Origin: Capsulimonadaceae bacterium
GTDB taxonomy: Bacteria > Armatimonadota > Armatimonadia > Armatimonadales > Capsulimonadaceae
Direction: 5' to 3'
Length of the DNA stretch: 64,000 nt
NCBI GenBank assembly: GCA_031292625.1
Contig: JARLGU010000042.1
Coordinates: 1 to 64,000, forward strand
The notes under the pieces are model-generated. The model was not told where the DNA came from. It worked only from the letters and a program-made list of their open reading frames with translations, and searched no databases. Of the stretch, positions 41,310 through 45,509 are shown one piece after another. The position numbers were made by a program, and so were the translations under genes. Position 1 is the stretch's first letter. Each line of letters begins with the position of its first letter.

Positions 41310-44066
41310 ATGTCACCTACTCGCCTCTCCCAATGTTTGCTCGCAATCGCCTGTATCGCGGTGGTTGCATGTTGTCCGGCTTCCGCCCGTCAGCGCCTTC
41401 TGTTCGACGCGAACTGGCGATTCCAGATCGAACCGGATGCCGCTCCCTCACAGGGCCAGGAAATCGCCGCATGGCGATGGACGCCGTCCGATCAAGGGGT
41501 GGAATCCTCCGCGAAATTCGCCGCGCCCGCGCTGGACACGTCGGGGCCTGAGTGGAAGGATGCCGCCATCGGCGACGACGTCTTCCATGGCCGCAAGGGC
41601 TTTGCATGGTTTCGCGCGATCTTGCCGAAGATGAGCGCTGCCCATCGCATCCTGAGCTTCGCCGGAGTCGACGACAACGCCGATGTGTTCGTCAACGGCG
41701 TCAAACTCACTCACCACGAAGGCTGGAACGACCCGTTCGATGTTGAGATTGGCCGCGCATGGCGCGATAAAGGTCCGAACGCCATCGCCGTCCTTGTCGA
41801 AAACATCGATGGCCCGGGCGGCATTGGCGGCGCCGTCAAACTCACGGCCTTTTCCGCGCGGACCTGCTTTAACGAAGATTTCAACGACCGAACCTGGCGC
41901 ATCGTTCACCTGCCGCACGACTATATCGTCGAAGGGCCGATCGACAATCCAGCCGACTACGGCCATGGCGGTTACACGCTGCGACCCGCGTGGTACCGCA
42001 AGACGTTTACCCTGCCGGCGACGGACAAGGGAAAGAGCGTCTGGATCGATTTCGACGGCGTTTATCGAGACGCGAGCGTGTATCTGAACGGACAGCTCAT
42101 CGGCAAGCATCCAAGCGGCTACGCCAGTTTCCGCTATGACCTCACGAATACGATTCGCTTCGGCGCGCCGAACGTGCTCGCCGTCCGCGTCAATCCCCGA
42201 TTGCACGAAGGCTGGTGGTACGAAGGCGGCGGCATCTACCGGCACGTCTGGCTGAATATCGCGAGCAAGCTGCACATCGCTCCGTGGGGAACGTTTGTCT
42301 CCGCAAAGCTTCCCGAACCAGGTCCGGACGGCCTTGCGGCGTCCGCGAAGGTCACAATCGAGACCAATGTCGCGCCGCTAACGACGGTAGAGCCATACAC
42401 GCTCGTCTCCAAGGTCTTCGACTCAGCCGGCAAAGTCGTCGCGCAATCCGAAACCAAGGCAAAATCCGGCGCAACGGCGCCGAAGATCGAGCAAACGGTC
42501 ACCGTCGCGCACCCCAGGCTCTGGTCGCTTGAGACGCCGTATCTCTATCAGGTCGTCAGTACGATCCTCGTCAACGGGCAAACCGCCGATCAAGTCGCGA
42601 CGCCGTTCGGTATTCGCACTATCCGATGGGACGCCGACAAGGGCTTCTTTTTGAACGGGAAGAGCGTTAAGATCAAGGGGTTCTGCAACCATCAGGACTT
42701 CGCCGGAGTCGGCATCGCCGTCCCGGACACCCTCGAAGCCTGGCGCGTCGCCAAGCTCAAGGCGATGGGCGCGAACGGCTGGCGCATGTCGCACAATCCC
42801 CCCACCCCCGAGCTCCTCGACGCCTGTGACAAGCTCGGCATGCTCGTCATGGACGAAACGCGGCATCTGGGAGACGCGACCGGCGCAAAGAGTTCCATCA
42901 ATACGCCCTATACGGATCTCTACGAGCTGAAGTCGATGATCCAGCGGGACCGCAACCATCCGTCCATCGTCCTCTGGTCGATGTGCAACGAGGAAGGCAT
43001 CCAGGGCACGCCTCAGGCGGCGGCCATCTTCCAGGCAATGATGGATGTCGTCCACCGCTACGACACGACGCGTCCGATCTCGTGCGCGATGAACGGCGGC
43101 TGGTTTGACGAGGCCGGCATCGCCTCGGTGGAAGACCTGTTGGGCGTCAACTACAGCTACGGCGTCTACGATAAGTTCCACGCCCTGCATCCTAAGATGC
43201 CGATCTACGGCAGCGAAAGCGCCAGCACGGTGACGACCCGCGGCGAATATGCTACCGATGCCCAAAAGGGATTCGTGACGAGCTACAACATGACCGACGG
43301 CTCGTGGAAACCCGTCGGCAGCCGCCAGTTTGTCGCGGGCAGCTTTGCGTGGACAGGCTTCGATTACAAGGGCGAAACGTCACCGTTCAAATGGCCCAAC
43401 ATCCACAGCAACTTCGGCGTGCTCGACATGTGCGGCTTCCCAAAGGACAACTACTGGTACTACCAGTCCTGGTGGCTGGATAAGCCGATTATCCACATCA
43501 TGCCGCACTGGAACTGGGCCGGCAAAGAGGGCCAGAATATCCGCGTGATCGTCTTCAGCAACTGCTCGTCGGTCGAGCTGTTCCTGAACGGCGCAAGCCT
43601 GGGTGCAAAGGATGTTCCGTTTCTCGGACACCTGGAATGGTCCGTCCCGTATCAGTCGGGCGTCCTCGAAGCGCGCGGGATCACCGGCGGCAAGGTTATC
43701 ATCGCCGACCGGGTTGAAACGACCGGAACGCCGGCATCGCTTCGGCTCACGGCCGACAGGACGACGCTCACGGCCGATAGCGAGGATGTCATCCCGGTAG
43801 AAGTGGACGTTCTCGATGCGCGCGGACGGATCGTCCCAACCGCGTCGAACCGGATCGCCTTCACCGTCACCGGCCCCGCCCAGATCGCAGGCGCTGGGAA
43901 CGGCAACCCGGTCGACCACGAACCGGACACGGGGAGCCAGCGCGACGCCTTCAACGGCAAGGCGCTTGTCGTGGTCCGCTCGACGGATAACGCAGGCCCG
44001 ATAGTGCTCACCGCGACCGCCGACGGCCTCGCCGCGGCGACGTTGGACCTGAGCGCGCGTAAATAG
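41310..44066 (+). CDS. Secreted GH2 beta-galactosidase-type enzyme
   Basis: A protein of 918 residues with a signal peptide (MSPTRLSQCLLAIACIAVVA..., ends PASARQR). A GH2 sugar-binding jelly roll, an Ig domain and a TIM barrel follow. The acid/base E561 is in HPSIVLWSMCNEEG and the nucleophile E636 in PIYGSESAST, 75 residues apart as in active GH2 enzymes. A DUF4982-like and a C-terminal Ig-like domain finish the protein. Members hydrolyse beta-galactosides or related beta-linked sugars; the exact one is unknown. GAGG lies 8 nt before the ATG. It is divergent from the module 4 regulator and has no prepilin gene of its own. Confidence 0.92.
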   Translation: MSPTRLSQCLLAIACIAVVACCPASARQRLLFDANWRFQIEPDAAPSQGQEIAAWRWTPSDQGVESSAKFAAPALDTSGPEWKDAAIGDDVFHGRKGFAWFRAILPKMSAAHRILSFAGVDDNADVFVNGVKLTHHEGWNDPFDVEIGRAWRDKGPNAIAVLVENIDGPGGIGGAVKLTAFSARTCFNEDFNDRTWRIVHLPHDYIVEGPIDNPADYGHGGYTLRPAWYRKTFTLPATDKGKSVWIDFDGVYRDASVYLNGQLIGKHPSGYASFRYDLTNTIRFGAPNVLAVRVNPRLHEGWWYEGGGIYRHVWLNIASKLHIAPWGTFVSAKLPEPGPDGLAASAKVTIETNVAPLTTVEPYTLVSKVFDSAGKVVAQSETKAKSGATAPKIEQTVTVAHPRLWSLETPYLYQVVSTILVNGQTADQVATPFGIRTIRWDADKGFFLNGKSVKIKGFCNHQDFAGVGIAVPDTLEAWRVAKLKAMGANGWRMSHNPPTPELLDACDKLGMLVMDETRHLGDATGAKSSINTPYTDLYELKSMIQRDRNHPSIVLWSMCNEEGIQGTPQAAAIFQAMMDVVHRYDTTRPISCAMNGGWFDEAGIASVEDLLGVNYSYGVYDKFHALHPKMPIYGSESASTVTTRGEYATDAQKGFVTSYNMTDGSWKPVGSRQFVAGSFAWTGFDYKGETSPFKWPNIHSNFGVLDMCGFPKDNYWYYQSWWLDKPIIHIMPHWNWAGKEGQNIRVIVFSNCSSVELFLNGASLGAKDVPFLGHLEWSVPYQSGVLEARGITGGKVIIADRVETTGTPASLRLTADRTTLTADSEDVIPVEVDVLDARGRIVPTASNRIAFTVTGPAQIAGAGNGNPVDHEPDTGSQRDAFNGKALVVVRSTDNAGPIVLTATADGLAAATLDLSARK

Positions 44067-44151
44067 CGGCCAAATCGATGTGCCCGTCTGCTCTATAATA
44101 TGGGGCGGGCGAGCACATCGTTATTTTTTTCACAAAGTTTTCCGGATTCTC

Positions 44152-44180
44152 TTTACAACTTTGGCAGGCGGCGATATAAT
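44152..44180 (+). promoter_or_regulatory. Strong promoter without a following protein gene
   Basis: TTTACA (44152-44157), 17 bp, perfect TATAAT (44175-44180). The GTTAAC-rich palindromic stretch that follows may be an operator or part of the transcript. No credible coding frame starts downstream. Confidence 0.75.
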
Positions 44181-44186
44181 CTAGTT

Positions 44187-44442
44187 GTTAACGGATTAAC
44201 GATTGAGTGGACAGGAGGTCCGCGAAAGACCGGACATTCAGTTAACGTCGCAGCTGTACTACGACCAGCCTGTGAACGCCGCCGACGATCGTGGGGACGA
44301 TTGGCGGAGTTCCAGCGGGGTAAGAGGCATCTTCGAGTCTTGCCGCCGACGGGGCCGCACGCCCTGTCAGGACAAGGTAAGCGTCACGCGTCCCGGCAGG
44401 GGCTCACGGTGGCGGGGCTCGGAGATGCCTCCTGTGTTTTTT
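44187..44442 (+). ncRNA. Unclassified structured RNA candidate
   Basis: A transcript from the promoter at 44152-44180 would fold strongly. The 5' part has a GTCCG/CGGAC hairpin (about 44217-44235) closed by TGAGTG/CATTCA. The middle has CCGCCGA/TTGGCGG around a TCGT-GGGG-ACGA tip (about 44280-44308). The 3' part has a 24-bp stem (44324-44347 with 44408-44431) without a mismatch if G-U pairs are allowed; five of the pairs are G-U. A six-T run ends at 44442. The G-U pairs point to RNA-level structure. It matches neither tmRNA nor RNase P, SRP or 6S RNA in the conserved words I know. Confidence 0.55.
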
Positions 44443-44840
44443 CTGCTGCTAGCGGCGATCCGATCCACACTGTCCGACAGGAATCCCCAGTGCGCATGAT
44501 GGGGCGCTGCCTGAATGCCTAGATGCTCAGGTAGCGTTCGACCTTGTGTCTCGCGACAATATTACGTTTCCTAGTGAGAAGCCGCTGCCACCGAAGCGCG
44601 CTTGCGCCGCGAAGAGACCTTGCCCGCGCCAACATGCTTAGGGGCGGAGACGCGAAGCTGCGTATTCCTCGCGTTAGTGCGCCTCTCATGAAAATATAGC
44701 TCAATTTGAGCGTGGTTCGCGCGTACGGAGACCTCTCTACCCCATCGGAATGGGGTCCCCTTCTCTCCGAAACGGAGAGACTGTTGGCCGCATTGCCAAG
44801 CGCTCCTAAGCTCCTCCCGCTTCGGCTCCCCGGCCTCGCT

Positions 44841-44865
44841 CGGAGTCCTGAGCCTGTCGAAGGAG
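44841..44865. repeat. REP-like intergenic element
   Basis: The core TCCTGAGCCTGTCGAAGGAG is a word I know from intergenic repeats in many unrelated bacterial genomes. Only one copy is seen here. Confidence 0.4.
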
Positions 44866-44927
44866 AGGAAGGGGCAAATGAAATGGGAAGGTAGGTTCCG
44901 CGCGAAGCGCGCCGAGGCGTAGCCGAG

Positions 44928-45509
44928 TTAGTGCGCGATCTTAACTTTCAAGTCGTCGATCCAAACCGCCTCGCCAGCCGTCGGCTTGAGCAAGAAAACG
45001 TAAAGATTGAGGTCGTCGGTACCATCTGAAAGCGGCGCTTCCTCGTGATACTTCGTCCACCCGTTCCCCGCGATCGCAACCAGATTTTCTTTGTTGCCAA
45101 TCCAGTGAGTAGGCTTGCCGTTCGCCCATTCCAGCACTCTGAAGGACGCCTCTCCCGTGTGAAGCAGGGTCGTTCGGGCGTAGAAGTCCACCATCAGTTT
45201 GCGGTTCTGCGAACGATCCTTGGTCGTGATGCGGCAATACGCGTCGTGCGACGTTGCCGCGTCTCGATCAACCCCGACCTTGAGGCTGAACTTTCCACTT
45301 TGTGGGTTCACGGGATCGAGCGCGATGATGGACGGCGCCTCGCCGGTACGGTCTTCGTCATGCCAGGCGGTTAAATCAGTTGGCGTTTCAAAATCGAACG
45401 CGGCGGCCACCTCCGGCTGCGGCGGGTCCGTCGCTGCACGTGCCGGCACGCAGAAAAGAAGCGCCGCAAGCGGGGCGGCGACTGAGCAGAGAAGTTGTCG
45501 AATTCGCAT
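44928..45509 (-). CDS. Secreted carbohydrate-binding-module-like protein
   Basis: A protein of 193 residues: signal peptide (ends VPARAATD), then a single beta-sandwich of the CBM4/9 or CBM11 style. It opens with FDFETPTDLTAWHDEDRTGEA and ends with VWIDDLKVKI, a closing strand common in such modules. No catalytic domain is present. GGAG lies 8 nt before the ATG. It stands 109 bp behind the GntR-LacI gene at 45619 and may be its target. A role in holding sugar polymers outside the cell is likely but not proved. Confidence 0.7.
   Translation of the reverse strand: MRIRQLLCSVAAPLAALLFCVPARAATDPPQPEVAAAFDFETPTDLTAWHDEDRTGEAPSIIALDPVNPQSGKFSLKVGVDRDAATSHDAYCRITTKDRSQNRKLMVDFYARTTLLHTGEASFRVLEWANGKPTHWIGNKENLVAIAGNGWTKYHEEAPLSDGTDDLNLYVFLLKPTAGEAVWIDDLKVKIAH

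Follow-up and report, generated by a model that had tools for sequence, protein, structure and literature searches.

A candidate small RNA gene with two Csr/Rsm-type 5′ hairpins in a Capsulimonadaceae bacterium

CsrA can be sequestered by stand-alone decoy RNAs, of which CsrB/CsrC and RsmX/Y/Z are the described representatives. A high-affinity Csr/Rsm site consists of an ANGGAX hexaloop placed directly on its stem, as in stem-loop SL1 of RsmZ with the loop ACGGAU, while loops without the N form a weaker class (PMC4005645). CsrB carries 22 GGA motifs and CsrA decoys are known mainly from Gammaproteobacteria (PMC7652899). The second kind of antagonist, FliW, anticorrelates with BarA-UvrY, the activators of decoy RNAs (PMC4682653). 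Whether FliW and decoy RNAs act jointly on CsrA in one species is a stated open question (PMC7652899, PMC4682653).

Here we analyse a 64,000-nucleotide stretch (the window) of the genome of a Capsulimonadaceae bacterium, in which a predicted RNA lies between two convergent genes (Table 1). Like the Csr/Rsm decoys, it would be a stand-alone intergenic RNA with A(N)GGAX stem-loops at its 5′ end, and its predicted length of about 256 nt falls within the range of CsrC and CsrB. It differs from them in having only two well-formed sites without GGA enrichment, a long 3′ stem of 25 bp, no homologue and a genome that carries fliW. We consider that the interval is very probably a real stand-alone small RNA gene. 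The more complete explanation, a lineage-restricted small RNA gene acting as a CsrA decoy, is proposed tentatively, with a probability of roughly 0.3.

Table 1. Coordinates of the predicted RNA, its parts and its surroundings in the window
Feature	Position	Strand	Evidence or remark
GH2 glycosidase gene (upstream neighbour)	41310-44066	+	
Terminator-like hairpin of the GH2 gene	44076-44127	+	repeat search, sequence, fold z
Sigma-70-type promoter, TTTACA-17-TATAAT	44152-44180	+	11 of 12 consensus bases
Proposed non-coding RNA	44187-44442	+	both ends inferred
H1, GUUA-ACGGAU-UAAC; ANGGAX hexaloop directly on stem, Csr/Rsm-type	44187-44200	+	
H2, GUGGAC-AGGAG-GUCCGC; AGGAG pentaloop (A-GGA-X, without N)	44207-44223	+	
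Central hairpin domain, core 44274-44283/44303-44312	44266-44323	+	z −3.0
25-bp stem, 5′ arm	44324-44348	+	repeat and stem searches
Insert within the long stem, 58 nt	44349-44406	+	z −0.2, alone chance-level structure
25-bp stem, 3′ arm; five G-U pairs, each formed on the forward strand	44407-44431	+	
T6 run, possible transcript end, 5 nt from stem	44437-44442	+	sequence
Dispersed repeat, about 260 bp	44674-44936		
193-aa protein gene (downstream neighbour, convergent)	44928-45509	−	no Pfam match

The promoter is the only exact copy of its sequence in the window; a first-order Markov model leads us to expect 0.1 sites of this quality (11/12) per 64-kb strand. Judged by the −10 box spacing, transcription is predicted to start at G44187, and with the 3′ end placed at the T6 run the transcript would measure about 256 nt. 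A scan of 1.24 Mb of this genome gives 70 promoters with at least 11 of the 12 consensus bases. Twelve of these lack a coding-scoring open reading frame downstream, by a crude coding score and in a list that is not pure (at least one member, L104, does have a long open reading frame). Four others of the twelve precede tRNAs, so such a promoter often belongs to a stable RNA in this genome. Another gene-less strong promoter (locus L103, 14688-14760; G000:C25, about 94688) has the palindrome AGATGATCTTTGCTGTCATCATCT immediately after it, possibly a second uncharacterized RNA or an operator.

Two reading frames (98 and 140 aa) are open across the interval. Their codon log-odds are negative (−0.13 and −0.19), the neighbouring genes scoring +0.12 to +0.38, and neither frame has a Pfam match, which agrees with the earlier statement that no sound frame follows the promoter. 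The interval thus combines its own promoter with the absence of a coding frame, as is proper to an independent small RNA gene.

The predicted position between convergent genes also holds. The GH2 gene upstream is followed by a hairpin with arms of 22 nt, 1 nt between them and a T-rich tail, whose folding is exceptional on the forward strand only (z −3.7). This hairpin probably terminates the GH2 gene and keeps the GH2 transcript apart from the RNA gene. Since the GH2 gene has this terminator-like structure and T-run, the RNA is unlikely to represent its 3′ end, and we treat it as a unit of its own. The best relatives found for the glycosidase are about 48% identical and occur in Opitutia and Acidobacteria MAGs, a distribution that may reflect transfer between phyla. 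The 193-aa protein has no relative among 60 related genomes. Downstream of the RNA, the dispersed repeat holds CCTGAGCCTGTCGAAGG; three further stretches of the genome carry copies of 91-98% identity, of which two are at contig starts, and weaker or partial copies occur elsewhere in the genome.

The RNA folds with a predicted energy of −125.5 kcal/mol (z −5.0). Set against a tiling of the window into 638 pieces of 260 nt, taken from both strands, its z for its G+C is −3.7 on the forward strand and −0.9 on the reverse strand, and the sole equally extreme piece overlaps the RNA itself. Most of this excess resides in the 3′ stem (44321-44435, z −6.3), some in the central hairpin domain and little in the 5′ part (44184-44265, z −1.3). 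The original prediction of an isolated promoter driving an unclassified, strongly folded RNA is therefore well supported, the stretch being strand-specific in its folding, non-coding, absent from Rfam and a separate unit.

The long stem is uninterrupted over 25 bp, one more than the 24 bp first reported; its freedom from mismatches, its five G-U pairs and the T6 run behind it were correctly described. Among uninterrupted stems with loops of at most 80, sought in 1.24 Mb of the genome, it is the longest, the next one measuring 21 bp. Five nucleotides (CTGTG) separate it from the T6 run and it encloses the 58-nt insert, so it is no textbook terminator and the exact 3′ end of the RNA is uncertain. 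Two alternative global folds, one with the T-run free and the other with the T-run hidden, are predicted.

No credible Rfam match to the RNA emerged, whether gathering or permissive thresholds were applied. No Csr/Rsm family was matched, and in the search of a smaller stretch the only match at E values up to 10 was an irrelevant microRNA model. 6S RNA (RF00013) resembles the candidate in being a stand-alone structured RNA of similar size. However, it gave no match here, it differs in shape and sequence, and the genome's own 6S RNA lies on contig C38. For RNase P, tmRNA and SRP RNA, the missing Rfam match at this locus is the sole ground for exclusion. To isrG (RF01390) the long hairpin bears a weak resemblance, scoring 20.1 bits over 44319-44439, but the gathering score of this family is 100 bits and the match disappears when the smaller stretch is searched. 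The score is most likely due to the long hairpin alone.

A search for homologues in related genomes had been suggested with the original prediction, and it found none, either by blastn in 60 relatives, which gave merely scattered short matches, or with a one-sequence covariance model in 290 genomes of the same phylum, where the organism's own genome as the 291st gave the RNA itself. Applied to 40 relatives, to 411 kb of loci and to 26 GH2 loci, the same model returned no sequence other than the RNA itself. The covariance prefilter scores few candidates per genome, by which distant relatives could be missed. The nearest genomes searched are other genera of the same family, and the absence of homologues is fair evidence for the family members searched and weak evidence beyond them. 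Phages, plasmids and viral contigs yielded only short chance matches and, in addition, one 18-mer in two viral contigs without a match to the model. The genome itself holds no paralogue and the RNA is single copy. Tentatively, the RNA appears lineage-restricted.

From G44187 the RNA begins with GUUAACGGAUUAAC, which contains H1, and H2 follows with its loop 21 nt from that of H1. The H1 loop is identical to that of RsmZ SL1, whereas H2 belongs to the weaker class; both hairpins, with GGA in the loop, fit the published CsrA/RsmE site. The motif was chosen after seeing the sequence. This is the sole such pair (stems of at least 5 bp, within 40 nt) on both strands of 1.24 Mb of the genome, and none was found for four other cores. 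The expected number of GGA motifs in hairpin loops, computed with the start at 44184, is 1.37 versus 0.21 in shuffled sequences, of which 2% reach this value. In total the RNA has 8 GGA motifs against 6.9 in shuffles, two of them in hairpin loops, which does not amount to an enrichment. A pattern combining the promoter with ACGGAT and AGGAG has 26 matches in the 291 same-phylum genomes, and both hairpins are present in this one only. The matches outnumber those of a reversed control, which we explain by AGGAG being a Shine-Dalgarno site.

The formation of H1 depends on where transcription starts. For a start at G44187 it is a minority fold (5% of the ensemble), since a helix of 44187-44196 with 44236-44246 takes its place, and forcing H1 costs about 2.2 kcal/mol; the share rises to 47% for a start at 44184 and to 85% for 44183. 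H2 is stable, with a probability of 0.93 for the start at 44187. In the shortest transcripts, H1 forms first. As DNA, H1 reads as a perfect palindrome at the start site, and an operator is another possible role for it.

The genome encodes CsrA (G000:C16:43068-43223, 81.7 bits) with the RNA-contact residues L4, R6, V42 and R44 kept. A second, divergent CsrA-like open reading frame of 83 aa (G000:C25:35693-35797) scores slightly below the Pfam cut-off. The fliW gene (G000:C29:84556) adjoins an open reading frame that reads like flgL. While csrA and fliW are on separate contigs here, most relatives possessing the two genes have them next to each other (G001, G002, G004, G005, G006, G010, G014, G017 and G019).

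The pair H1/H2, the excess of GGA in loops and the presence of csrA and fliW in the genome lead us to propose CsrA titration. Sigma-70 transcription would start at about G44187, yield about 256 nt and end near 44442, and the 25-bp stem would probably shield the 3′ end and aid termination. The RNA could then act in trans: H1 and H2 would offer their exposed GGA loops to CsrA, and binding there would draw the protein off mRNAs. As H1 competes with the helix formed between the 5′ end and 44236-44246, CsrA could either bind co-transcriptionally or change the fold. Titration is the most likely specific mechanism; that it is the main action of the RNA is nevertheless doubtful. Two good sites are few beside those of CsrB, and both the mainly gammaproteobacterial occurrence of decoys and the anticorrelation of FliW with BarA-UvrY count against a decoy in this genome. 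Still less likely is the extended picture in which a CsrA-titrating RNA outside Gammaproteobacteria works alongside FliW, so that both kinds of antagonist meet in one cell, possibly with a two-state fold in which the binding of CsrA to the 5′ hairpin would alter the pairing of the 3′ T-run.

The alternative that survives best accepts the gene and disputes the mechanism. In it, a stand-alone small RNA base-pairs with mRNAs or binds another protein and the GGA loops are incidental; this reading is a strong contender, if short of even odds. All the gene-level evidence fits it equally and base-pairing is the commonest action of intergenic small RNAs. Unpaired stretches that might serve this purpose exist (44234-44236 and 44374-44380), but in a crude duplex test with the start regions of seven neighbouring genes the complementarity was not out of the ordinary. 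This alternative also leaves the GGA hairpin pair to chance.

If the interval is no gene at all, it may have originated at the DNA level as a decayed palindromic repeat (MITE- or REP-like), without RNA function, beside a promoter that is due to chance or bears an operator. In its favour, long hairpin repeats (arms of 24-61 bp) abound in the sister genome G002, the downstream flank holds a dispersed repeat close by and the H1 palindrome sits at the start site. We consider this origin improbable: the stretch is single copy in its genome, the folding excess is strand-specific and all five differences between the arms of the long stem preserve pairing on the forward (RNA) strand. If each transition falls either way, the chance of the last outcome is 1/32, a value that is suggestive only, and it lends slight weight to the original view of the G-U pairs as a sign of selection on the transcript. 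Concerning G002, which represents another genus of the same family, many near-perfect palindromic repeats are seen at loci L126, L128, L130, L132 and L133.

A small RNA gene is also preferred over a leftover leader of the riboswitch or attenuator type, the downstream gene of which was lost or displaced, perhaps by the dispersed repeat that lies some 230 nt further on. In the order of its parts (promoter, folded region, stem, T-run) the interval resembles an attenuated leader, and the two alternative folds free or hide the T-run. Yet no riboswitch or T-box of Rfam matches, no coding remnant is found on the forward strand between 44442 and 44928, and a stem of 25 bp that encloses a 58-nt insert and stops 5 nt short of T6 would make an unusual attenuator; a leader is, in our judgement, slightly less credible than a decayed repeat. 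A retron-like or other mobile-system RNA (msr-msd, omega RNA) is very unlikely: the succession of 5′ hairpins and one long 3′ hairpin resembles the msr-msd layout, but Rfam gives no match, no partner protein is encoded beside the RNA, and the only two RVT_1 matches of the genome are both on other contigs, the full-length one reading by eye like the group II intron type.

Small RNAs of this bacterial phylum have hardly been described. If the RNA does not bind CsrA, it would be one more lineage-specific small RNA without known target. If it does, it would bear on whether FliW and decoy RNAs act together in one species.
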